The notes under the pieces are model-generated. The model was not told where the DNA came from. It made no database searches and saw only the letters and a list, made by a program, of their open reading frames with translations. Positions 18,056-36,745 of a stretch of DNA of 64,000 bases are shown piece after piece. Made by a program: the position numbers and the translations under genes. The stretch is from positions 992,001 to 1,056,000 of the forward strand of contig NZ_CP022316.1 of assembly GCF_002216795.1 (NCBI RefSeq), read 5' to 3'. Position 1 is the stretch's first letter, and each line of letters begins with the position of its first letter. The stretch comes from Brachybacterium avium (lineage in GTDB: Bacteria > Actinomycetota > Actinomycetes > Actinomycetales > Dermabacteraceae).

Positions 18056-19489
18056 TCACAGCCGTGGCAGCTCCACATGATGGCGCAGCACGGGCAGCGC
18101 GGCGCGTGCGGCCTCGACCTCCTCGAGGTCGAGGTCCACCAGCAGCAGCCCGGGCTCCCGCCCGAGCTCCTGGCGGATCCGACCCAGCGGGCCGACGACG
18201 GCGCTGCGACCGATCCCGCGGGCGGCGGGGCCGGAGTAGCTCGGGGGCGGCGACTGGTCCGCGGCGAGGACGACGGTGGTGGAGTCCAGGGCGCGGGCGC
18301 GCAGCAGCAGCTGGAGCTGTTCGCGCTTGCCGGGCCCGTCCTTCCAGGCCAGCGGGAGCAGGATCGCCTGGGCACCGTGCTGGGCGAGCGCCGTGAACTG
18401 CTCCGGGAAGCGCACGTCGTAGCAGGTCGCGACCCCGAACCGGGTTCCGGCGAGATCGAAGGTGATCAGCTCATCGCCCGGGGCGACGGTGCGGGACTCA
18501 TCCGCGCCGAAGGCGTCGAAGAGGTGGATCTTGCGGTAGTCGAGATGCGGGTCCCAGTTCGGGCCGCGCACGATCACGGTGTTGTGGACCCGCCCGTCGT
18601 CGGTGGGGGTGAAGGAGCCGGCGACCACCACCACGCCATGCTCCTCGGCGAGCTCCTGGACCACCTGGGCGAACTCCTCGTGGTGCGCCACGGCGGCCGC
18701 GCGCAGGTCCGTGCCGAAGGGGGTGAGGGTCGCCTCCGGCAGCAGCACCAGGTGGGCGCCCTCCTCGGCCGCCTCGGCCACCGCGGAGCGCACGGTGTCG
18801 AGGGTGGCCCTCACCTCCTCGGAGACCTCGATCTGAGCCAGCGCGATGCGCGGACCGGCCACGCGCCGCACCTGTGCGAGAGCGTCCGGGGTGTCGATGT
18901 CCGCGCCCTCCGCGCCGGTGGCCGGCAGCGTCACCAGCTCCTGATCGGCCAGCTGCGCGTACAGCCGGCGCAGGCTGAGGTCGGCCCAGCCTCCCTCCGC
19001 ACGCTCGACCGCGGTCAGTGCCGCGCGCAGCCGGCCCAGCGGCCAGGCGGCACCGAGGAACTGGAGGTGGCCGTCCTCCGCCTCCAGTGCCGCGACGCTC
19101 GAGCTCTCGGCACTGGCGGCGGCGAGCGCCGCGAGGGTCTCGGGGCGCAGCATCGGCATGTCGCCGCCGAGCACCAGCACGGTCGCCTCGTCGGCGCCCT
19201 CGGAGAACTCGGCGACCCCCCGCTCGAGCGCGGCCAGCGGGCCCGACCTGGGCGGGTCCTCGAGCACGAAGCGGGCTCCGTGGCGCTCGGCGAGCACGTC
19301 CCCGTCCTCGCCGCTGGGACCCACCACGATGCGGCGGCCGACGGGGGCGGCGCGCAGCACCCTCTCCAGCGCGCTCGCCCCGGCGATCGGCAGACGCGTC
19401 TTATCGGTGCCGCCGAGGCGCGAGGACGCACCTCCGGCCAGGATGATCGCGGCGACGGTGGCGGAGGTCTCGTGCAGCTGGCTGGACAT
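18056..19489 (-). CDS. MobA-like nucleotidyltransferase fused to a nitrilase-family amidohydrolase
   Basis: A 477-residue two-domain protein. Residues 11-190 are a MobA-like NTP transferase: LAGGASSRLGGTDK at 18-31 binds nucleotide and GGDMP (D110) binds metal, as in enzymes that attach GMP or CMP to molybdopterin. Residues about 212-470 are a nitrilase-superfamily hydrolase with the full triad E252 (LPEATL), K320 (LDYRKIHLFD) and C356 (GVATCYDVRFPEQ). Both halves look catalytically intact, so this is a genuine fusion in one uninterrupted frame. The nitrilase half most resembles omega-amidase/NIT-type enzymes that repair deaminated metabolites. No other molybdenum cofactor gene is present here. 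An AGGA ribosome site precedes ATG 19489. Confidence 0.83.
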   Translation of the reverse strand: MSSQLHETSATVAAIILAGGASSRLGGTDKTRLPIAGASALERVLRAAPVGRRIVVGPSGEDGDVLAERHGARFVLEDPPRSGPLAALERGVAEFSEGADEATVLVLGGDMPMLRPETLAALAAASAESSSVAALEAEDGHLQFLGAAWPLGRLRAALTAVERAEGGWADLSLRRLYAQLADQELVTLPATGAEGADIDTPDALAQVRRVAGPRIALAQIEVSEEVRATLDTVRSAVAEAAEEGAHLVLLPEATLTPFGTDLRAAAVAHHEEFAQVVQELAEEHGVVVVAGSFTPTDDGRVHNTVIVRGPNWDPHLDYRKIHLFDAFGADESRTVAPGDELITFDLAGTRFGVATCYDVRFPEQFTALAQHGAQAILLPLAWKDGPGKREQLQLLLRARALDSTTVVLAADQSPPPSYSGPAARGIGRSAVVGPLGRIRQELGREPGLLLVDLDLEEVEAARAALPVLRHHVELPRL

Positions 19490-19561
19490 GCTCAGATCCT
19501 GCCACGGAGCGCTACCATGTTCGAGGCCCTTCGTCGCTGCATCGCGCGCTCGGGCCGGATC

Positions 19562-19634
19562 GCCCCCGTAGCTCAGGGGATAGAGCACCGCTCTCCTAAA
19601 GCGGGTGTCGCGCGTTCGATTCGCGCCGGGGGCA
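19562..19634 (+). tRNA. tRNA-Arg (anticodon CCU)
   Basis: A 73-base cloverleaf. The acceptor arms GCCCCCG (19562-19568) and CGGGGGC (19627-19633) pair perfectly, with discriminator A at 19634. The D arm contains AGCTCAGGGGATAGAGC, the anticodon loop is CTCCTAA (anticodon CCT), and the T loop is GTTCGATTC. CCA is not encoded. It is a single tRNA between the divergent MobA-nitrilase gene and the end of the IclR gene. A TACCAT -10 candidate lies about 45 bases upstream. Confidence 0.95.
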
Positions 19635-19649
19635 CGAAGGAATAGCAGG

Positions 19650-20420
19650 TCAGGGCAGCAGTGCAGCCGTGCCGCCGAGCCGGGCCGTGATGCCGGCCGC
19701 CGCCTGCCCGCACGCATCGCGCAGCTCGTCCAGCCGCTCCCGGTCCACGCGATATCGCGGGGCCGCGATCAGCAGCGAACCGACGAGATCGCCCCGATGA
19801 TCCCGCACCGCGGCAGCGATCCCCACCTCGTCGGGGACGGTGAGCCCGTCGTTGACGGCGCACCGCTCGTCGTCATCGCGGGAGAGCGCGGCCAGAGCCT
19901 CCTCGTCGGTATCGAGACGCTCCAGGGCCGTGGCGCGGGCCTCTCCGCTCATCTCCCGCAGGAAGATGCGCACGGAGCTCGAGGCCGGCGTCGCGTAGCG
20001 GGTGCCGAGCTCGACCGCGTGCTTGACGGCGCGCCGGGAGGGCACCTGCTCGACGGTCGCCGCGCCGTCGCCGTCCCACAGCAGCAGGGAGCTGGTCTCC
20101 CCCGTCGCCTCGGTGACCTCGGCGAGCACCGGCGCGGCGGCGCGGCGGATGTCCAGATCGGACAGCAGCGAGCCCGCGACCTGCAGCAGGCCGAGGCTCA
20201 GCCGGTACTTCTGGGAGTAGGGATCCCGCTCGACGAGTCCCTCGGACTCCAGCGTCGGCAGCATCCGGGAGACCGAGGACTTGTGCAGCCCGACCTGCTC
20301 GGCGATATCGACCACGCCGAGCACCGGGTGCTGGGCCGTGAAACAGCGCAGGATCGCCATCGCCGTCGCGACGGGGGATCCGCTGCGCACGGGGCTCTCG
20401 TTCCCGGTGGTGCTCGCCAT
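19650..20420 (-). CDS. IclR family regulator, candidate controller of the creatinine genes
   Basis: A 256-residue IclR regulator. The N-terminal winged helix has VDIAEQVGLHKSSVSRMLPTL (about residues 37-57), and the C-terminal IclR effector domain includes GETSSLLLWDGDG and the late DEVGIAAAVRDHRGDLVGSLL. It is the last gene of the minus-strand unit creatinase-cupin-iclR. Three promoters of the creatinine island share one 25-bp composite operator, and this is the most likely protein to bind it (inference). Whether it activates or represses, and whether it senses creatine, creatinine or sarcosine, is unknown. A GGGAGG ribosome site precedes the start. Confidence 0.88.
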   Translation of the reverse strand: MASTTGNESPVRSGSPVATAMAILRCFTAQHPVLGVVDIAEQVGLHKSSVSRMLPTLESEGLVERDPYSQKYRLSLGLLQVAGSLLSDLDIRRAAAPVLAEVTEATGETSSLLLWDGDGAATVEQVPSRRAVKHAVELGTRYATPASSSVRIFLREMSGEARATALERLDTDEEALAALSRDDDERCAVNDGLTVPDEVGIAAAVRDHRGDLVGSLLIAAPRYRVDRERLDELRDACGQAAAGITARLGGTAALLP

Positions 20421-20461: not shown

Positions 20462-20878
20462 CTACGCGTCCGCCGCACGACGGGCCTCGAGCGCCCGCCG
20501 AAAGGAGCCGAAGCCGCTCTGGTCGAAGGTGCCCGGAGGTCCCCAGATCACCACGACCCGCAGCGATCCCTTGCCGATGTTGGCGAGGTCGTGCGGGGTG
20601 GCCGCCGGGCTGCGGAGACTGTCGCCGGGTCCCAGCTCGAAGCTCTCGCCGTCCTGACGGATTCGGGCCCTTCCTTCCGTGACCAGGTAGAGCTCCTCGA
20701 GGGGCGGGTCGTCGTGGGTGTGCATGCCCTCGAAGGCACCGGGTCCGAGCGTCCAGGTCTGGACAGCGGCCATGAGCTGTGAGTCACCCGCGAAGTGGTG
20801 CTCGACGCTCAGCGGCCCCCGACCCCCGTGCATCGCGAACTCGACGGCGTACCGGCCTCGGCGGTCGACGGGGTCCAT
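20462..20878 (-). CDS. Cupin domain protein in the creatinase operon
   Basis: A 138-residue single-domain cupin. The first metal motif is GMHTHDDPPLEELYLVTEGRA (two His and a Glu) and the second is GDSLRSPAATPHDLAN, with a single His. Small cupins of this type bind a metal and may be isomerases, dioxygenases or ligand sensors. It lies 84 bases after creatinase and 41 before iclR, on the same strand and presumably the same mRNA, so a role in creatine or sarcosine metabolism is likely. No defined reaction can be assigned. AGGAGG precedes the ATG. Confidence 0.8.
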   Translation of the reverse strand: MDPVDRRGRYAVEFAMHGGRGPLSVEHHFAGDSQLMAAVQTWTLGPGAFEGMHTHDDPPLEELYLVTEGRARIRQDGESFELGPGDSLRSPAATPHDLANIGKGSLRVVVIWGPPGTFDQSGFGSFRRALEARRAADA

Positions 20879-20962: not shown

Positions 20963-22219
20963 TCAGGCCGGGATGATGTTGTACTCGGGGCCGAAGGGGA
21001 ACTTCGTGATGTTCTCGACGCCGTCCTCGCCGACCACGAGGATGTCGTGCTCGCGGTAGCCGCCCGCTCCGGGCTGTCCCTCGGGCACGGTGATCATCGG
21101 TTCCATCGAGACCACCATGCCGGGCTCGAGCACGGTGTCGATGTCCTCGCGCAGCTCGAGGCCCGCCTCGCGGCCGTAGTAGTGGGACAGGACGCCGAAG
21201 GAGTGGCCGTAGCCGAAGGTGCGGTTGGGCAGCAGCCCGTAGCCGATATAGATCTCGTTCAGCGCCGCGGCGATGTCCTTGCAGACGGCTCCGGGCTTGA
21301 TCAGCTCGAGGCCGGCACGGTGCACCTCGACGTTGACGTTCCACATCCGCAGGGACTCCGCGTCGGGCTCGCCGAAGAAGAGCGTGCGCTCCAGGGCCGT
21401 GTAGTAGCCGGTGGGCATCGGGAAGGCGTTCAGCGAGAGGATGTCGTGCTCCTGGACCTCCCGGGTGGTGGCCCAGTTGTGGGCGCCGTCGGTGTTGATG
21501 CCGGACTGGAACCAGACCCAGGTGTCCCGGATCTCGCGGTGCGGGAAGGCCTTGGCGATCTCGTGGGTCATCGCCTGGGTGCCGGCGAGGGCGACCTCGA
21601 ACTCCTTGACCCCGGCGTGGATCGCGTCCTTGATGGCCTGGCCGCCGATGTCGCCGATCCGGGCGCTCTCGCGGATCACGGCGATCTCCTCGTCGGACTT
21701 CAGCATCCGCTGGCGCATGGCGGCCTGGGAGACGTCCACCAGCTCCGCCCCGGAGAAGGTGTCCTGGAGCTGCTGGCGGATCAGCTGGGGGACGGTGTCG
21801 TCCTCGATGCCGAGTCGCTTCGGGCTCTTCACGCCGCGCTGGGCGAGGGCCTGCTGGAGCGCGAAGTAGTAGTTGTCGCGCTGCCAGTCGGTGTAGACGA
21901 GGTTCTCGCCGTAGCTGGTGCGCCAGGGCATCCCGGCGTCGATGTTGGCGCTGATGGTGCAGGTGTCATCGGCGGTGACGACCATGCCGTAGTTGCGTCC
22001 GAAGTAGGTGAACAGGAAGTCCGAGTAGTACTTGATGCCCTGGTAGCTGGTGAGGATCACGGCGTCGAGGTCCTTCTCGGCCATGATCTGACGCAGGCCT
22101 GACAGGCGGCGCTCGAACTCGGCGTCGGAGAACGTCAGCTGCTGCTTCTCGCCGATGTGCAGGGTCTTCAGGCGCTCCAGCTCGGAGACGGAGCTCGCGG
22201 TGGCGGGGGTCGTGGTCAT
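20963..22219 (-). CDS. Creatinase (creatine amidinohydrolase)
   Basis: A 418-residue enzyme hydrolysing creatine to sarcosine and urea. It has the pita-bread fold of M24 aminopeptidases but lacks the metal ligands. Diagnostic creatinase segments are nearly identical to the Pseudomonas enzyme as I remember it: YYSDFLFTYFGR, VYTDWQRDNY, WFQSGINTDGAHN (H247 matches the catalytic histidine) and RTFGYGHSFGVLSHYYGREA. Length is typical. It starts a minus-strand unit with a cupin and IclR gene. Its upstream gap (22220-22346) carries the shared GTTGC operator. The urea it releases has no urease partner in this window. Confidence 0.96.
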   Translation of the reverse strand: MTTTPATASSVSELERLKTLHIGEKQQLTFSDAEFERRLSGLRQIMAEKDLDAVILTSYQGIKYYSDFLFTYFGRNYGMVVTADDTCTISANIDAGMPWRTSYGENLVYTDWQRDNYYFALQQALAQRGVKSPKRLGIEDDTVPQLIRQQLQDTFSGAELVDVSQAAMRQRMLKSDEEIAVIRESARIGDIGGQAIKDAIHAGVKEFEVALAGTQAMTHEIAKAFPHREIRDTWVWFQSGINTDGAHNWATTREVQEHDILSLNAFPMPTGYYTALERTLFFGEPDAESLRMWNVNVEVHRAGLELIKPGAVCKDIAAALNEIYIGYGLLPNRTFGYGHSFGVLSHYYGREAGLELREDIDTVLEPGMVVSMEPMITVPEGQPGAGGYREHDILVVGEDGVENITKFPFGPEYNIIPA

Positions 22220-22292: not shown

Positions 22293-22317
22293 ATTGCATT
22301 CAGCGCAACCGTGTTGC
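22293..22317. promoter_or_regulatory. Shared creatinine-island operator, creatinase copy
   Basis: ATTGC-N7-GCAAC-N3-GTTGC on the plus strand, one mismatch from the copies at 25066 and 27109. It lies 74-98 bases upstream of the creatinase start. A further TTGCATTCA direct repeat (22294 and 22314) overlaps it. Confidence 0.65.
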
Positions 22318-22346
22318 ATTCATTGTGTGCCGCGTGGTGGGTCACG

Positions 22347-23156
22347 TCAAGGGGTGCCGAGCTCCCGGCGCAGATCCGTCGCGAGAGCCTCGGTGACCTG
22401 CTCGAACAAGAGCTCCCCCTTACGGGCGTCGGAGCCGTCGGGGGCGGAGAGGCACCCGGTCTCCGGGGTGCGCTCGGCGACGACCGGCAGCCGGTCGAAG
22501 CGCGGCAGGCTCGCCGGCGGATGGCTCACGGCGCGCTCCATCTCGACCAGCTCGGGGCGCAGGTGCAGCATCAGCGAGGTCTCCAGGACACCGCCGTGCT
22601 CGATGTCCCAGCCGGGAAAGCCCTTCGGATACACCTCGGCCAAGGTCGCCTCCGAGACGTAGTCCCAGTAGGACAGCAGCAGCACCGAGGGCGTCGACCC
22701 TCCCTCGCCCGCGATCCCGGCCGCCCGGACGTCGCCGAGCGCGAGATCCGCCGCCTCGTAGAGGAACTGGTAGTTCTCGAAGTGCCCGTTGAGCACCACC
22801 ACGTTCGCCACGCCCTGGGACAGGAAGCCCGCGAGCACGCAGCGTGCCTGGGCGATGAGGGCGGCGGCGTCCAGGCTGATGGTGCCGGGAAGATGGTCGC
22901 CCCCGCCGGACTTCTGCTGGGACTTATAGCCGTAGGCGAGCGGCTCGGCGACCTTCGCCCCGGTGCGCGCCGCCACCGCCTCGGCGATGGTCGTGGACAG
23001 CAGGGCGTCGGTCCCCATCGGCAGATGGGGGCCGTGCTGCTCGAAGGCCCCGGCCGGCACGATCACGGTGGCGCCGCCCCGCGCCACCCAGTCCCGATAG
23101 CGGTGGGCATCCAGGTGGGCCAGCCGGACCGGCTGCTGCGCTGCGGTGTCAGGCAC
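22347..23156 (-). CDS. Creatininase (creatinine amidohydrolase)
   Basis: A 269-residue creatininase-family metalloenzyme that opens creatinine to creatine. The binuclear metal ligands are all visible: E39 and H41 in GAFEQHGPHLP, D50 in GTDALL, and H125 and E127 in LNGHFENYQF. A tryptophan (YWDYVSE) and the C-terminal IEHGGVLETSLML also match. The presence of creatinase and BCCT transporter genes beside it makes creatinine the best substrate, although the family also contains F420- and riboflavin-linked amidases. It follows the BCCT gene after 17 bases and is probably cotranscribed with it. Confidence 0.92.
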   Translation of the reverse strand: MPDTAAQQPVRLAHLDAHRYRDWVARGGATVIVPAGAFEQHGPHLPMGTDALLSTTIAEAVAARTGAKVAEPLAYGYKSQQKSGGGDHLPGTISLDAAALIAQARCVLAGFLSQGVANVVVLNGHFENYQFLYEAADLALGDVRAAGIAGEGGSTPSVLLLSYWDYVSEATLAEVYPKGFPGWDIEHGGVLETSLMLHLRPELVEMERAVSHPPASLPRFDRLPVVAERTPETGCLSAPDGSDARKGELLFEQVTEALATDLRRELGTP

Positions 23157-23173
23157 TCTCTCGCATCCTCTCG

Positions 23174-24991
23174 TCAGGGTTTCTCGGCATAGGGGTTCTG
23201 GGGTTCGGTGAGGGTGCCCGCGCCGACGCCGCGTCGCGGGTCGGGGCGGGGGATCCCGTCGGCATCGACGGTGTCATCCTCCGCCCGGCGCTTCGGATCG
23301 TTGATCTCCTTCTCCAGCCGCCGCACGAACTTGTTGCGAGCCCTCAGGCGGCGGACGAGGTTGATGATCATCAGCAGGATCACGAAGGAGAACGGGAAGG
23401 CGCCGATGATGGTGCCGGTCTGGACGGTGTCGACGACGTTCACGCCGCCGAGCGCGAGCAGCAGCACCGCGACCGTGCCGATGCTGGCGACCAGGACCAC
23501 ACGGAAGAGGGGGCCGGACTTCTTCGGGGCCGAGACGAACTCGGCGAGGGCATAGGTGCCCGAGTCGAGGCTGGTGACGTAGTAGGTGGCCACCAGGATC
23601 GTCGCGATCACCAGCAGCGGGCCACCGACCACGGGGATCATCCCGAGCATCGAGAAGAGCCCGGCGGAGGTGTCCTCGGCGACGTCGGCGGAGACGCTGC
23701 CGCCGGAGAGGTCGTCGTAGTAGGTACCGGCTGAGCCGATCACAGCCACCCACACCATCACGATCAGGGTGGGGATGACGGTCACTCCCAGGACGAACTC
23801 GCGGATCGTCCGGCCGCGGGAGATGCGGGCGATGAATCCGGCGACGAAGGGCGAGAAGGCGATGACCCAGCACCAGATGAAGACGGTCCAGATCCCGTTC
23901 CAGCTCTCCGACCAGTCCCCGAGCGGCGCAGCGGCGGTCTCCGCTCCGGTCCAGAAGCTCATCGGGATGAAGTGGGAGAAGAAGGACCCGAAGGTCTGGG
24001 AGAGGTTCGACAGGATGTACACAGTGGGACCGAAGACGAAGACGCCGATGACCAGCACGATGCTCAGCACCGAGTTCAGTTCGCTGATGCGCTTCATCCC
24101 CTTGTTCACGCCCAGGAAGGCGGAGAGGGCGGTGAGCCCGCCGAGCACCACGATGACGACGAACCAGACGGCGGGACCGGAGAGGATCCCGGTGAAGGAG
24201 GTCAAGCCGGAGCTGAACTGCATCGCGGCGAAGCCGAAGGAGGTGGCCAGACCCAGAACCGTGGCGATGATGGCGAGCAGCTCGATGACGACTCCGGCCG
24301 GCCGCTGGACGCGCTCCGGGAGCAGATCGACGGTCGCCTCACGGAAGGTGAGGGTCTTGCCGAGGTTGTGATGGGAGTAGGCCAGGCAGATGGCGACCAC
24401 GCAGTACATAGCCCAGGCCGTCAGCCCCCAGTGGAAGTACGTCCACACGATGCCGCCCTGACCGGGGTTGCCGGCATCCGCCACCACCGGAGCGCCGTCC
24501 TGCAGCAGGATCGGTTCGGCGATCGACCAGAAGATCAGGCCGATCCCCTGGCCGCAGGCGAAGAGCATGGAGTACCAGGCGAACTTGCCGTGCTCGGGCC
24601 GGGCCTTGGGGCCGCCCAGTCGGATCGAGCCCATCCTGCTCAGGCACAGCCAGGTGCACACGCCGAAGGCGATCAGCGAATAGGCGACGAACCACCAGGT
24701 GAATCCGCCGGTGACGAAGGTGCGCAGGCGGCCGATTACCGCCGCGGCGCCATCGGGGTCCGCGATCACCGCGATCACCGCAGCGAGGATCAGCAGCGGC
24801 GGCAGCACCATGATGATCCCGCGGTCCAGCGGCGGGATCAGCCGGCCGCGGAAGCGCGGGAGGACGACAGTGCTGCCGCGCTCCGCCTCGGCACCCTCCT
24901 CGCTGGCCGTGACGGTGGGGGCGGCATCGACCGGCTCCCGGTCGTCGTCCGGCGGAGAGCTCTCGTGGTCTGTGGAATCGGATGTAGGCAT
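23174..24991 (-). CDS. BCCT family transporter, probable creatinine/creatine or betaine importer
   Basis: A 605-residue betaine/choline/carnitine transporter with about 12 membrane helices starting near residue 55. The family signature is present as GIWTVFIWCWVIAFSPFVAG followed by FIARISRGRTIREF, along with WTYFHWGLTAWAMYC, which includes the aromatic substrate-box region. It has an acidic N-terminal tail and a charged C-terminal tail (RLEKEINDPKRRAEDD). The start at 24991 follows GGAGG by 8 bases; an in-frame upstream start at 25081 has no ribosome site. It leads the BCCT-creatininase unit, so its cargo is likely creatinine, creatine or a related methylated amine. Confidence 0.9.
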   Translation of the reverse strand: MPTSDSTDHESSPPDDDREPVDAAPTVTASEEGAEAERGSTVVLPRFRGRLIPPLDRGIIMVLPPLLILAAVIAVIADPDGAAAVIGRLRTFVTGGFTWWFVAYSLIAFGVCTWLCLSRMGSIRLGGPKARPEHGKFAWYSMLFACGQGIGLIFWSIAEPILLQDGAPVVADAGNPGQGGIVWTYFHWGLTAWAMYCVVAICLAYSHHNLGKTLTFREATVDLLPERVQRPAGVVIELLAIIATVLGLATSFGFAAMQFSSGLTSFTGILSGPAVWFVVIVVLGGLTALSAFLGVNKGMKRISELNSVLSIVLVIGVFVFGPTVYILSNLSQTFGSFFSHFIPMSFWTGAETAAAPLGDWSESWNGIWTVFIWCWVIAFSPFVAGFIARISRGRTIREFVLGVTVIPTLIVMVWVAVIGSAGTYYDDLSGGSVSADVAEDTSAGLFSMLGMIPVVGGPLLVIATILVATYYVTSLDSGTYALAEFVSAPKKSGPLFRVVLVASIGTVAVLLLALGGVNVVDTVQTGTIIGAFPFSFVILLMIINLVRRLRARNKFVRRLEKEINDPKRRAEDDTVDADGIPRPDPRRGVGAGTLTEPQNPYAEKP

Positions 24992-25065
24992 CTGGACGTC
25001 CTCCAACGGCGCTGTTGTGGGCTGGCTCCCCGGTGGGACGGGGTCGCAGCTCCTTCCGACGACCT

Positions 25066-25090
25066 GTTGCATCATGGGCAACTCGGTTGC
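25066..25090. promoter_or_regulatory. Shared creatinine-island operator, BCCT copy
   Basis: GTTGC (25066-25070), N7, GCAAC (25078-25082), N3, GTTGC (25086-25090): all three blocks are perfect. It lies about 75 bases upstream of the BCCT start. Confidence 0.7.
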
Positions 25091-25174
25091 GGCACATCTT
25101 TGCAGTGACCGGCCTCACGGTCAACCCTCCGACGGCACCCGTGCGTGCTCTCCACAGCACGGGCGCCGCGGCGC

Positions 25175-25624
25175 TCACATGGGCTCCTTGACCCCTCGTC
25201 GGATCAGCCACGCGTTGACCGGATAGCTGCACAGGAAGCCGAACACCATGGCGATCTGCATGAAGAACCAGTAGGCGGGGGTCGACGGCGGCGCATGCCC
25301 GTCGAGCCAGTGCGGCAGCACGGCGAGCTGGACGATCGCCATGAACCCGATCATCCCGACCTGCCAGGCGGCGATGGAGGCCACGTCCGCCTTCAGCGCG
25401 GCGAGGAGCCCCTGGACGAGTCCCAGCTGGCGCATGGGCGCGATCGCGAAGTACTGCAGGACCACCCCGAACACGAAGGCCAGGACGGTGCCGACGACCC
25501 AGCCCCCGTAGACCTCGTGACGCAGCAGCGCGACCGGCACCAGCGCGGGCAGCAGCGCCATCAGCACGTCCGCGGCGTGGTCATCGGCACCTCCTGCGCC
25601 CCCGGGTTCGGGTCCTCGGGTCAC
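25175..25624 (-). CDS. DUF4396 membrane protein in the creatinine island
   Basis: A membrane protein of 149 residues if the GTG at 25624 is used, or 128 from the ATG at 25561. Four hydrophobic segments are visible, and the C-terminal FFMQIAMVFGFLCSYPVNAWLIRRGVKEPM-type ending is characteristic of DUF4396. Function is unknown. It lies 81 bases after the MFS carrier on the same strand and is probably in the same transcription unit, which begins at a shared creatinine-island operator; a role as transporter accessory is a guess. No good ribosome site marks either start. Confidence 0.7.
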   Translation of the reverse strand: MTRGPEPGGAGGADDHAADVLMALLPALVPVALLRHEVYGGWVVGTVLAFVFGVVLQYFAIAPMRQLGLVQGLLAALKADVASIAAWQVGMIGFMAIVQLAVLPHWLDGHAPPSTPAYWFFMQIAMVFGFLCSYPVNAWLIRRGVKEPM

Positions 25625-25705
25625 GCCCCGATCATCTCGAGGACCGCCGCGCGAGGGAAGTCCCCGATGGGCGAGGCGGCCACCCGGGAACCGCACCCGG
25701 GGTGA

Positions 25706-27091
25706 TCAGGCGGCCGCGCGCCGCAGGTCGTGATGGGCGGTCTCGCGGGCGATGAGCACCGCGATCAGGGAGACTGCGGCCGCGGCCATGAGGTACCACG
25801 CAGGGGCGATCGTGCTGCCGGTCATCCCGATCAGCAGCGTGGCGACGAACGGAGCCGTGCCGCCGAAGATCGCATTGGACAGGTTGAAGCTGACAGCGAA
25901 GCCCGAATACCGGACCTCGGTGGGGAACAGCTCGGCGAGGAAGCTCGGCAGCGTGCCGTCGTTGAGGGTGAGCATCGCGCCCAGCAGCACCTGCACCAGC
26001 AGGATCACCAGGAAGGAATCGGTCTCCAGCAGGAAGAACGCCGGCACCGTGAGCACGATGAAGCTCACCGACGCGCTGAGCAGCACCTTCCGCCGCCCGA
26101 AGCGGTCCGAGAGCAGGCCGGTGAGGAAGATGAAGCCGATGTAGGTGAACAGCGCGACCGTGGTGGCGATGTAGGCGCGGGTATCGCTCAGGCCGAGCTC
26201 GGTCGACATGTACACCGGCATGTAGCTGAGGATCATGTAGAAGCCGACGGCGTTGAGCAGGACCGCGCCGGAGGCGAGCAGCCCGGTGCGCCAGTAGGTG
26301 ACCAGCAGCTGCTTGGTCGGCGCCTTCACGACGTCGTCGCTCTTCGTCAAGGCCTGGAACTCGGGGGTGTCCTCGAGCTTGTTCCGGATGTACTTGCCGA
26401 TCAGGCCCATCGGCGCTGCGAGCAGGAACGGCAGGCGCCATCCCCACGACTCCATCTGGGGATCGGTCAGCGTCACGCTCAGCAGCGAGGCGATCAGGGA
26501 GCCGAGCAGCAGGCCCGAGGCGGTGGAGGCCGGGACCACCGCGGCATACATGCCCCGCCGGCGAGGCGGTGCATATTCCACGAGGAAGGCGGAGCTGCCG
26601 GCGTACTCGCCGGCGGCGGAGAAGCCCTGCACGAGGCGCAGCACGAGCAGGAGCAGCGGGGCGAGGAATCCCACGGTCTGGTACGAGGGCAGCAGGGCGA
26701 TGAGGAAGGTCGCGCCGGACATGATCAGGATCGACCAGGCGAGCGCGGTCCGCCGACCGACCCTGTCCCCCAGGTTGCCCCAGAAGAACCCGCCGATGGG
26801 GCGGATGAGGAAGGAGATCGCGAACAGCGCGTAGGTGGACAGCAGGGCGACGCGCGGGTCGCTCTCCGGGAAGAAGACGACCGCGATCGTGGTGGCGAGA
26901 TAGCCGTAGACGGCGTAGTCGAACCATTCGACGAAGTTGCCGATGAAGCTGGCCACGACCACCTTGCGGCGGGTCTGCGGGGTGACGCCGGTGCCGTCGT
27001 TGGCCCGCGAGCGCCCGCTCATGCTCAGGGATTCCGCATCGGGGGAACCGTCGGCCGGGGTGGCTGCGTCCTGGGGAGCAGTGGACATCAT
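25706..27091 (-). CDS. MFS transporter, metabolite:H+ symporter (MHS/ProP-like)
   Basis: A 461-residue twelve-helix MFS carrier of the MHS family. The family marks are the opening ASFIGNFVEWFDYAVYGYLA, the loop GNLGDRVGRRTAL between helices 2 and 3, RLVQGFSAAGEYAGSSAFL in helix 4 and a second DRFGRRKVLL loop. MHS members import proline, betaine, citrate or related compounds with H+. Its promoter carries the shared creatinine-island operator, so it probably imports creatine, sarcosine or a similar compound. Tandem ATG codons at 27091 and 27088 follow AGAGG. It is followed by the DUF4396 gene. Confidence 0.9.
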   Translation of the reverse strand: MMSTAPQDAATPADGSPDAESLSMSGRSRANDGTGVTPQTRRKVVVASFIGNFVEWFDYAVYGYLATTIAVVFFPESDPRVALLSTYALFAISFLIRPIGGFFWGNLGDRVGRRTALAWSILIMSGATFLIALLPSYQTVGFLAPLLLLVLRLVQGFSAAGEYAGSSAFLVEYAPPRRRGMYAAVVPASTASGLLLGSLIASLLSVTLTDPQMESWGWRLPFLLAAPMGLIGKYIRNKLEDTPEFQALTKSDDVVKAPTKQLLVTYWRTGLLASGAVLLNAVGFYMILSYMPVYMSTELGLSDTRAYIATTVALFTYIGFIFLTGLLSDRFGRRKVLLSASVSFIVLTVPAFFLLETDSFLVILLVQVLLGAMLTLNDGTLPSFLAELFPTEVRYSGFAVSFNLSNAIFGGTAPFVATLLIGMTGSTIAPAWYLMAAAAVSLIAVLIARETAHHDLRRAAA

Positions 27092-27108
27092 CGTCCGCCT
27101 CTCTATCG

Positions 27109-27133
27109 GTTGCTCTGTGTGCAACTAGGTTGC
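27109..27133. promoter_or_regulatory. Shared creatinine-island operator, MFS copy
   Basis: GTTGC (27109-27113), N7, GCAAC (27121-27125), N3, GTTGC (27129-27133): all blocks are perfect. It lies 18-42 bases upstream of the MFS start, close enough to overlap the promoter or leader. Confidence 0.7.
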
Positions 27134-27241
27134 GTAGAACCTAGGCGCGTACGACACCGGCGTCAAGCGATCGGCGAGAAGTACCCTCCGCGGCCCCGGC
27201 CCGCCCACCGGGCCCGACGGGCGTGACGACGGGACGAACCC

Positions 27242-27901
27242 TCAGATGACCTGGCGCACCATCGCATCGAAGTGATGGATGTGAGCGAGGGCCAGCCGTT
27301 CGGCCCGGTCGGCATCGCCGGCGAGGATCGCCTCCAGCAGTGCGAGGTGCTCGCGGACATGTCCGGTCACATCCGGGAGCCGGTCGACCATGACGCTCCA
27401 GATGCGGGTGGCGAGGTTGTCGAGCCGGATCAGGGAGTCCTCGAGGTGGGGGTTGCCCGCGGCGCGGTAGATCAGGCGGTGCACGGCGAGATCTGCCGCC
27501 ATCGCCTCGCGCCAGGGGGAGCCGTCCAGCAGGCCCTCGACCCCCTCGTGCGCCTCGCGCAGCGCGCCTCGCACCTCGGGATCGGCACGCAGGGCCGCCT
27601 TGCGCGCAGCGAGGGGCTCCAGCAGCTCGCGCACCTCGGACACCGTCGCCAGCTCGGTGATGTCCACCCCCGTCGCGAACGTTCCACGGCGCGGATAGGA
27701 GACCACGAGCCGGTCCACCTCGAGCCGCTTGAGCGCCTCCCGCAGCGGGGTGCGGCCGACCCCGAGCTCCTCGGCGAGACGACCCTCCTGCAGGGGATCG
27801 CCCGGAGCGATGTCGAGCACGACCAGGCGGTCCCGCAGCGTGCGGTACGCCCGCTCGGCGAGCGAGAGTGCAGGGTCGGCATGCACGGGCAAGGAGGTCA
27901 T
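27242..27901 (-). CDS. GntR family regulator (FCD/FadR type) of the glyA-sox operon
   Basis: A 219-residue GntR regulator. The winged helix contains AERAYRTLRDRLVV and LAEELGVGRTPLREALKRLE (residues about 40-60); the C-terminal all-helical FCD domain has D-A-x-x-H-R-L-I (DLAVHRLIYRAAGN) and late H (HIHHFDAMV) metal-ligand positions. It is divergent from glyA, and a perfect 16-bp palindrome of FCD style lies in the shared gap, so it most likely represses the glyA-soxBDAG-sdaA operon and responds to a small organic acid or amine. The ATG at 27901 has GGAGG upstream; in-frame codons further up are not conserved. Confidence 0.88.
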   Translation of the reverse strand: MTSLPVHADPALSLAERAYRTLRDRLVVLDIAPGDPLQEGRLAEELGVGRTPLREALKRLEVDRLVVSYPRRGTFATGVDITELATVSEVRELLEPLAARKAALRADPEVRGALREAHEGVEGLLDGSPWREAMAADLAVHRLIYRAAGNPHLEDSLIRLDNLATRIWSVMVDRLPDVTGHVREHLALLEAILAGDADRAERLALAHIHHFDAMVRQVI

Positions 27902-27994
27902 CGCAGTCCTTCCTCCGGAGCGGACAATCGTGGACGAGAAGTCGCGCGCCGCAGGGGTTGACGTCGCGCGACCGCCATCATACGGTGTGCCCAT

Positions 27995-28010
27995 AACTGA
28001 TATATCAGTT
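27995..28010. promoter_or_regulatory. Palindromic GntR/FCD operator upstream of glyA
   Basis: The perfect palindrome AACTGATATATCAGTT lies 29 bases before the glyA ATG in the divergent gap with the GntR gene. AT-rich 16-bp palindromes are typical FCD-type operators, and binding here would block the glyA promoter. Confidence 0.75.
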
Positions 28011-35959: not shown

Positions 35960-36745
35960 TCAGCCCGCCGCGTCGCGCAGCTCCTTCAGCCGGGCCCGGT
36001 CCAGCAGAGCGGTCCAGCGACGCCCCGAGTCGATCAGGCCCTGCTTCTTCCAGCGGCTCATCACCCGCGAGACCGATTCCGGGGTGGAGCGGGCGAGCCC
36101 CGCGAGGTCCGCGCGGGACAGCGGCACCTCGAGCAGGATCCCCTCGCTGCCGCGGTCCTCACCGAGCTTGTCGGCCAGGCGCAGCAGAGTGCTCGCCACC
36201 CGCTGCTCGACGGTCGCGGAGCCGTGGGAGCCGACGTCGGTCTCGGCCCGGGCGAGACGGACGGCGACGTCGTCGAGGACCCGCAGGGCGATGCGCGGCT
36301 GCTCGGCCAGGACCGCACGGAACTCGTCCTGGTCGATGCGCAGCACGCAGGTGCCCACCAGCGCCGAGGCGGTCTGGTGGTGGACGCTCTCCCCGAGCGT
36401 GCTCATGGCCCCGAACAGCTCACCGGGGACCAGCAGATCGGTGACGGTCTCCGTCCCACCGGCAGTGAGCTGGGACAGCTTCACCCGGCCCTCGGCGACC
36501 ACATAGAGCGAGTCCGCCTCCTCGCCCGCACGGAAGATCGGGGCCGCAGCGGCGAAGGACCGGGTGCTCATGCGCGCATCGATGCGGTCCAGCTCCTCCT
36601 CGCCCAGCCCGCGGAAGTAGGGCGCCCTGGACAGCACGTACAGCCGCACCGGCCGCGGGCACTCGTGCGGCAGCGTGATCTCCGTGAGCGGGATCGTGCG
36701 CCGGCCCTGCGGCCCAGGCCCGGCGGGTGGCTGCGAGATGGTCAT
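35960..36745 (-). CDS. Crp/Fnr family transcriptional regulator
   Basis: A 261-residue regulator. The cyclic-nucleotide-like domain spans residues 35-155 (IFRAGEEADSLYVVAEGRVKL, GELFGAMSTLGESVHHQTASA). The C-terminal helix-turn-helix has SRADLAGLARSTPESVSRVMSRW (about 209-231). The N-terminus has one cysteine (HECPRPVRLYVLS) and no FNR four-cysteine cluster, so oxygen sensing by iron-sulfur is not supported. It is divergent from the metal chaperone and P-type ATPase, with an Fnr-like site in the gap. It ends 10 bases from the convergent sdaA stop. TAGGGT lies 6 bases before the ATG. Confidence 0.87.
   Translation of the reverse strand: MTISQPPAGPGPQGRRTIPLTEITLPHECPRPVRLYVLSRAPYFRGLGEEELDRIDARMSTRSFAAAAPIFRAGEEADSLYVVAEGRVKLSQLTAGGTETVTDLLVPGELFGAMSTLGESVHHQTASALVGTCVLRIDQDEFRAVLAEQPRIALRVLDDVAVRLARAETDVGSHGSATVEQRVASTLLRLADKLGEDRGSEGILLEVPLSRADLAGLARSTPESVSRVMSRWKKQGLIDSGRRWTALLDRARLKELRDAAG

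Follow-up and report, generated by a model that had tools for sequence, protein, structure and literature searches.

How does Brachybacterium avium switch on the genes with which it takes up and degrades creatinine and creatine? In the window analysed here (the whole stretch of 64,000 nucleotides, positions 992,001 to 1,056,000 of contig NZ_CP022316.1, assembly GCF_002216795.1), a 25-bp pattern, GTTGC-N7-GCAAC-N3-GTTGC, precedes three transcription units of a creatinine/sarcosine island, led by genes for an MFS transporter, a BCCT transporter and creatinase. Our analysis suggests that this element is very probably the operator of the IclR-family protein encoded at 19650–20420, a creatine-responsive repressor that would control creatine and creatinine uptake and hydrolysis. 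We scanned for the pattern with its reversed form as a control and recovered the three copies described in the original prediction:

27109–27133: putative three-box operator before the MFS gene, no mismatch (in gene direction GCAAC-CTA-GTTGC-ACACAGA-GCAAC)
25066–25090: putative three-box operator before the BCCT–creatininase unit, no mismatch
22293–22317: putative three-box operator before the creatinase–cupin–IclR unit, one mismatch, at the outermost base of the promoter-distal box

All three stand in gaps, ahead of the first gene of the unit (MFS, BCCT or creatinase), as had been noted. The remaining two matches in the window carry three mismatches each, and one of them overlaps the creatinase copy. 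At up to three mismatches the window contains five matches against 1.30 expected, a number reached in 2 of 100 shuffles; taken by itself, the window makes a moderate case against chance. A genome-wide search for further copies, set beforehand as a test, returned exactly these three places at up to two mismatches (3,568,502 bases in three contigs), and the reversed control had no match at that threshold anywhere in the same sequence.

Comparison across loci settles the non-chance origin of the element. A set of 70 loci in named genomes was fetched by alignment of 11 IclR orthologues and not by the site; some of these loci (labelled L) come from the same genomes as those labelled G below. Exact boxes at the 7/3 spacing gave 65 sites in 47 of the 70 loci, against a single site at 71 other spacing cells and none for 29 other orderings of the GTTGC letters. 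The GTTGC-N7-GCAAC pair was counted 82 times (164 halved, each pair being its own reverse complement) and the GCAAC-N3-GTTGC pair 73 times (146 halved), with six or fewer at other gaps from 0 to 15. We rejected a chance origin on the contrast of 65 sites to one together with the genome-wide uniqueness.

At up to one mismatch, the site was present in 59 of the 70 loci, and in 57 of the 63 with a creatinase match. Genera carrying it include Arthrobacter, Glutamicibacter, Sinomonas, Kocuria, Citricoccus, Brevibacterium, Georgenia, Humibacillus, Nesterenkonia and Nocardiopsis. There are 104 sites in all, 100 of which are no more than 400 bp from a matched gene and clear of the matched coding stretches; the nearest gene was MFS for 50 of these placed sites, creatinase for 32, BCCT for 8, creatininase for 7, and sarcosine oxidase beta, SHMT and IclR for one each. 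The same polarity was kept in 87 of the 100.

Conservation in relatives that keep the genes, which the original prediction made a test of the idea, was found in the genus, the family and the order. An IclR orthologue at an E-value no worse than 1e-30 is present in seven of 38 genomes of the genus, and each of these seven carries the site at up to one mismatch, against one of the other 31 (G027, a lone match with no related gene in the surrounding 20 kb). In other genera of the family (G039, G041, G043 and G044), the site precedes creatinase, MFS or BCCT; in G038, whose IclR match is the weakest and is split in two, the 20 kb contain no creatinase and no site at up to two mismatches. Among 396 genomes drawn from the order, creatinase was found at 1e-120 in 39, of which 30 lie outside the family; all 30 have a match at up to one mismatch, within 3 kb of creatinase by coordinates in 29, compared with matches in 5 of 30 further order genomes. 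Across the phylum, the exact pattern occurred in 4 of 395 other genomes and the reversed control in 2 of 396; one of the four matches (G054) precedes an MFS relative; for the remaining three, no tested gene lies within 1.5 kb.

The position of the element bears on what a bound protein would do. Promoters of a common layout could be read ahead of all three copies:

27138–27166, minus strand: inferred MFS promoter, TTGACG (27166–27161), 17-bp spacer, TAGGTT (27143–27138); the operator starts 4 bp on
25096–25124, minus strand: inferred BCCT promoter, TTGACC (25124–25119), 17-bp spacer, AAAGAT (25101–25096); the operator starts 5 bp on
22322–22350, minus strand: inferred creatinase promoter, TTGACG (22350–22345), 17-bp spacer, CACAAT (22327–22322); the operator starts 4 bp on

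In the gene direction the element reads GCAAC-N3-GTTGC-N7-GCAAC and follows TTGAC(G/C)-N17-hexamer in each case. Since it begins 4–5 bp past the inferred −10 hexamer, it would cover the likely transcription start, which is the position of a steric repressor. The −35 box of the creatinase promoter overlaps the stop codon of creatininase. A profile was built from 75 non-redundant sites, out of 87 in relatives that have a correctly oriented target gene no more than 300 bp away. Outside the element, its clearest conserved blocks are TTGAC near −33, exact in 63 of the 75 sites, and a weak TA...T near −9, both numbered relative to the site. A GlnR-type site (GT.AC.{6}G.AAC), tried as another candidate, matched none of the 75 promoter regions and was rejected.

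Within the element, 14 of the 15 box positions are conserved at 96–100% in the 75 sites and the outer base of the middle box at 83%, figures inflated by the choice of sites at up to one mismatch, which affects the contrast between positions less. Of the 24 deviations, 13 fall on that single base, and 12 of these 13 are C to T. Conservation is highest in the promoter-distal box, with one deviation in 75 sites. A fourth box as a general feature was rejected, a box 0 occurring in 2 and a box 4 in 4 of the 104 sites (expected 0.9 and 1.7). As a separate observation, promoters of Sinomonas carry two sites 63–65 bp apart (about six helical turns), in opposite orientation in four of five, possibly as a loop or a cooperative pair:

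Sinomonas paired sites: L053 6989/7052, L054 7168/7231, L055 7027/7090, L059 5979/6044, L114 5818/5883

The IclR protein had been named as the natural candidate to bind the element, and its co-occurrence with the site, the three-box geometry and a different palindrome in the gap of the neighbouring GntR gene all support this. The IclR gene also follows creatinase and the cupin gene in the same orientation. The genes concerned are as follows:

19650–20420, minus strand: IclR-family regulator, proposed binder of the operator (Pfam HTH_IclR 2.2e-15, IclR_C 4.4e-14)
20462–20878, minus strand: small cupin protein (Cupin_2 3.3e-15), between creatinase and IclR
20963–22219, minus strand: creatinase (creatine amidinohydrolase; nearest solved structure 1chm, creatine amidinohydrolase, 1.2e-158)
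22347–23156, minus strand: creatininase (NCBIfam TIGR04448, 303.6 bits, cutoff 235)
23174–24991, minus strand: BCCT transporter (Pfam BCCT 4e-135), a probable importer of creatine/creatinine
25706–27091, minus strand: MFS transporter (MFS_1 7.2e-39; best NCBIfam model TIGR00883, metabolite/H+ symporter, 398.8 bits, under the cutoff of 443.45), likewise a probable importer of creatine/creatinine

Both domains of the regulator, the helix-turn-helix (PF09339) and the effector domain (PF01614), scored above their cutoffs, and the structure of a close relative's effector domain has been solved (3obf, 1.3e-37). In the likely recognition region, all 11 aligned orthologues keep GL-HKS and V-SR unchanged. 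Among NCBIfam models, TIGR02431 (pcaR_pcaU) fits best, at 84.6 bits against a cutoff of 284.75, so the protein resembles PcaR/PcaU/PobR but falls outside their curated membership by score. The open reading frame next to it (18056–19717) joins MobA-like NTP transferase and carbon-nitrogen hydrolase domains in one frame, and its start is probably set ~80 residues too far upstream.

The pathway runs from creatinine through creatine and sarcosine to glycine, serine and pyruvate, and creatininase, creatinase and sarcosine oxidase are enzymes of clinical creatinine tests. We infer binding by IclR, repression, the effector and cotranscription along the following lines. When substrate is lacking, a dimer or tetramer of IclR on the three half-sites would block RNA polymerase, the direct half-sites standing 20 bp (some two helical turns) from each other. 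Creatine, or a compound close to it, would bind the effector domain, IclR would release the DNA, and the three units would be switched on together; as the IclR gene lies within the creatinase unit, the regulator would also control itself. A creatininase match is absent in 16 of 43 creatinase-bearing loci longer than 20 kb, which makes creatine a likelier inducer than creatinine. PMC3534580 describes Arthrobacter sp. Rue61a as growing on creatine and sarcosine and not on creatinine. Sarcosine released by creatinase would then enter a second module, made up of SHMT, sarcosine oxidase and serine dehydratase, which a GntR regulator would run through an operator of the form TGATATATCA.

The second module begins beside the MFS unit. 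To the right of the GntR gene, and divergent from it, lie genes for SHMT, sarcosine oxidase beta, alpha and gamma, and serine dehydratase:

27242–27994, minus strand: GntR/FCD regulator, likely start 27901, adjoining the sarcosine half
27995–28010: palindrome AACTGATATATCAGTT, between the GntR gene and the SHMT–sarcosine oxidase genes, probably a separate operator of GntR

The GntR gene is itself on the minus strand and needs its own promoter, in a gap with this different palindrome, which contradicts the earlier statement that the minus-strand half has only three promoters. Among 31 loci with a gap between GntR and the sarcosine oxidase genes, TGATATATCA was found in 25 (0.24 expected in shuffles even for a looser pattern), while the three-box site at up to two mismatches was found in one. 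With a conserved palindrome of its own in this gap, GntR most likely acts through a separate operator; the two regulators would then divide the pathway at sarcosine. In addition, 16 loci longer than 20 kb carry the three-box site and have no GntR match.

These results bear directly on who binds the element and how it acts. The three-box site could be bound by the adjacent GntR/FCD protein or some other regulator in place of IclR, and the GntR gene is indeed next to the MFS unit, in many relatives as in the window; yet the gap counts (25 against 1 of 31) and the 16 loci devoid of a GntR match led us to reject GntR as the binder, and the three-box spacing is that of the IclR family, so that we consider another binder very unlikely. 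Somewhat less improbable, albeit still a minor prospect, is that the same IclR protein acts on the same operator as an activator needing creatine to recruit polymerase. PcaU, PobR and HmgR are known to have three-box sites (main text of PMC8222616), and pcaR_pcaU is the best model for the window protein, though far under its cutoff. Against activation, the site stands downstream of a recognisable −35 box and a weaker −10 box, in the window as in the 75-site profile, where activation would be unusual, and TTGAC boxes with 17-bp spacers should need no activator. Finally, the boxes could be a repeat element or a product of chance with no regulatory function, given that the element is short, that two of its boxes form a palindrome and that there is some background at one mismatch. 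We give this almost no credence: the element is unique genome-wide, sits in gaps before creatine genes, keeps an exact spacing over several families, and recurs at a fixed place before the same genes in unrelated genera.

Several observations weigh against IclR repression or against our counts. The promoters are consensus reads, which give putative transcription starts; CACAAT and AAAGAT are poor −10 boxes. PcaU and PobR, two IclR proteins with three-box sites, are activators. Many of the 70 loci are related or duplicate G genomes, so the counts are not independent, and the polarity is opposite in 13 of the 100 placed sites, several of them in paired sites. Six of the 63 loci with creatinase have no site: L061, L063, L083 and L107, with little or no DNA upstream of the first gene in hand; L092, an unexplained miss with ~1.2 kb upstream of the creatinase match; and L117 (3346–10518). 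The last is a second creatine cluster of Glutamicibacter creatinolyticus in which the IclR match is spread over three frames; as IclR is broken there, we counted the lack of a three-box site at up to two mismatches in favour of IclR as the binder. The division with GntR is not strict either, since L060 (7043–7208) and L065 (7070–7248), which have no GntR match, carry sites in the gap between a sarcosine-oxidase or SHMT gene and a divergent MFS gene, and there the sarcosine genes may have passed to the IclR regulon. The sole match of G726 lies on a contig other than that of creatinase. The pattern also has a background: the reversed control matched in 1 of the 38 genomes of the genus and, at one mismatch, in 12 of the 30 creatinase-positive order genomes, so lone matches elsewhere in these genomes are background; in 30 order genomes not listed as creatinase-positive, the site matched in 5 and the one-mismatch control in 4.

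Two further observations concern individual loci. In L117, a GntR gene lies directly ahead of the cluster. L116 (a Betaproteobacterium MAG) and L118 (Chelatococcus) have distant IclR proteins (37 and 34% identity) with partial sites near the IclR gene, and their loci contain a GLUCM-like gene among others.

Many creatine promoters carry a second conserved element inside the −35/−10 spacer:

25105–25118: GTGA-N6-TCAC, exact, CRP/GlxR-like, within the spacer of the BCCT promoter

Elsewhere in the window, the best matches of this motif are two mismatches at the creatinase promoter and three at the MFS promoter. Within the 35 bp before the operator, it occurs at up to one mismatch in 50 of the 75 creatine promoters (0.65 expected in shuffles), against at most 12 for other spacer lengths, and it mostly begins one base past TTGAC (loci L051–L120). 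It resembles a CRP/GlxR site. A Crp/Fnr-family regulator gene (35960–36745) adjoins the serine dehydratase genes in the window.

A related system appears at another route to sarcosine. G002 encodes a second IclR protein, 46% identical to that of the window, after an MFS gene and a gene whose product matches N-carbamoylsarcosine amidohydrolase (1nba, 1.1e-164), and a one-mismatch site lies 25 bp before the latter gene. The enzyme was found at 1e-80 in 5 of the 396 order genomes; in the three where it is at least 91% identical (G002, G602 and G537), a site at up to one mismatch stands directly before it, and in the two at 63–65% (G603 and G500) none does. Five of ten examined gaps before the enzyme have a site within 100 bp, three of them (L040, L181 and L182) from the same genomes as the G002, G602 and G537 set:

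L040 6570–9863, L069 10859–12580, L086 1040–4417, L181 and L182: loci of a paralogous IclR and the enzyme

The gaps of L069, L086 and L183 hold a more distant four-box version, in gene direction GTTGC-N7-GCAAT-N3-GTT(A/C)C-N7-GCAAC, with two mismatches in all. The paralogous IclR beside N-carbamoylsarcosine amidohydrolase appears to use the same operator type in some genomes. The five near sites have A before the first box and T after the middle box (AGCAAC...GTTGCT in 5 of 5, a small sample), whereas creatine sites prefer T before the first box (63%) and A after the middle box (55%) in the 75-site profile.

Taken together, these observations allow a wider reading, which we offer tentatively and rate at somewhat under even. 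Both bacterial routes by which creatinine becomes sarcosine would be governed by a pair of paralogous IclR repressors that share an operator type, the creatinase-side protein sensing creatine and the other the near-isosteric N-carbamoylsarcosine, with the base adjoining the half-site (TGCAAC versus AGCAAC) telling the two apart. The CRP/GlxR-like site in the −35/−10 spacer would place carbon and substrate signals side by side on ~60 bp. In loci that have lost GntR, the IclR site could also move before the sarcosine genes.

In the literature searched, the sole regulator found for creatine genes is a general nitrogen regulator. AmtR controls creatinine and creatine genes (creT, crnA) in Corynebacterium glutamicum ATCC 14067 (PMC8864220, whose main text does not contain the term IclR); it is a TetR-family nitrogen regulator that recognises CTAT-N6-ATAG and exerts general nitrogen control, in contrast to the pathway-specific IclR type proposed here. 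In Bacillus thuringiensis HD73, sarcosine oxidase genes are under SoxR/sigma-54 control (PMC4941409), which involves a different regulator and sigma factor and concerns the downstream sarcosine module. A term check of the Arthrobacter sp. Rue61a paper (PMC3534580) gave no IclR, and the IclR mention in the Roseobacter litoralis paper PMC3141670 refers to a galactoside cluster. For the regulation of creatinase, creatininase, creatine and sarcosine, we found no IclR regulon in a literature search that left the regulog tables (supplement of PMC8222616, RegPrecise) uncovered, which may hold such a prediction. If correct, a creatine-responsive repressor would explain induction of the pathway in Brachybacterium, Arthrobacter, Glutamicibacter, Kocuria, Brevibacterium and relatives, and the repressor with its 25-bp operator could serve as a creatine sensor.

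The form of the operator, by contrast, is already known in the IclR family. The earlier remark that no operator of this form had been described holds for creatine genes as far as searched; as to form, it is a described IclR-family type, three-box operators having been predicted in 32 groups of orthologous IclR proteins (Suvorova and Gelfand 2021, PMC8222616). According to the main text of that study, in which the string "creatin" does not occur, those systems share with ours three half-sites of alternating direction and an IclR-family gene within the regulated locus. The spacings agree as well: N7 between boxes 1 and 2 fits the group-1 form GKTYC-N7/8-GRAMC, and N3 between boxes 2 and 3 fits the group-2 form GRAAC-N3/4-GTTYC. 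In the window, the group-1 pair is intact in two copies and one base off in the creatinase copy, and the group-2 pair is intact in all three. The half-site GTTGC matches the family consensus in four of five letters, with G standing for Y, and that consensus is a joint one, some IclR proteins having other motif types. Our system differs in its pathway, creatine and creatinine, where the text stresses aromatics and sugars, and in the predominant polarity of the element over the start site. The strict three-box geometry also makes these sites a clean natural collection for testing the reading of three half-sites by IclR proteins.

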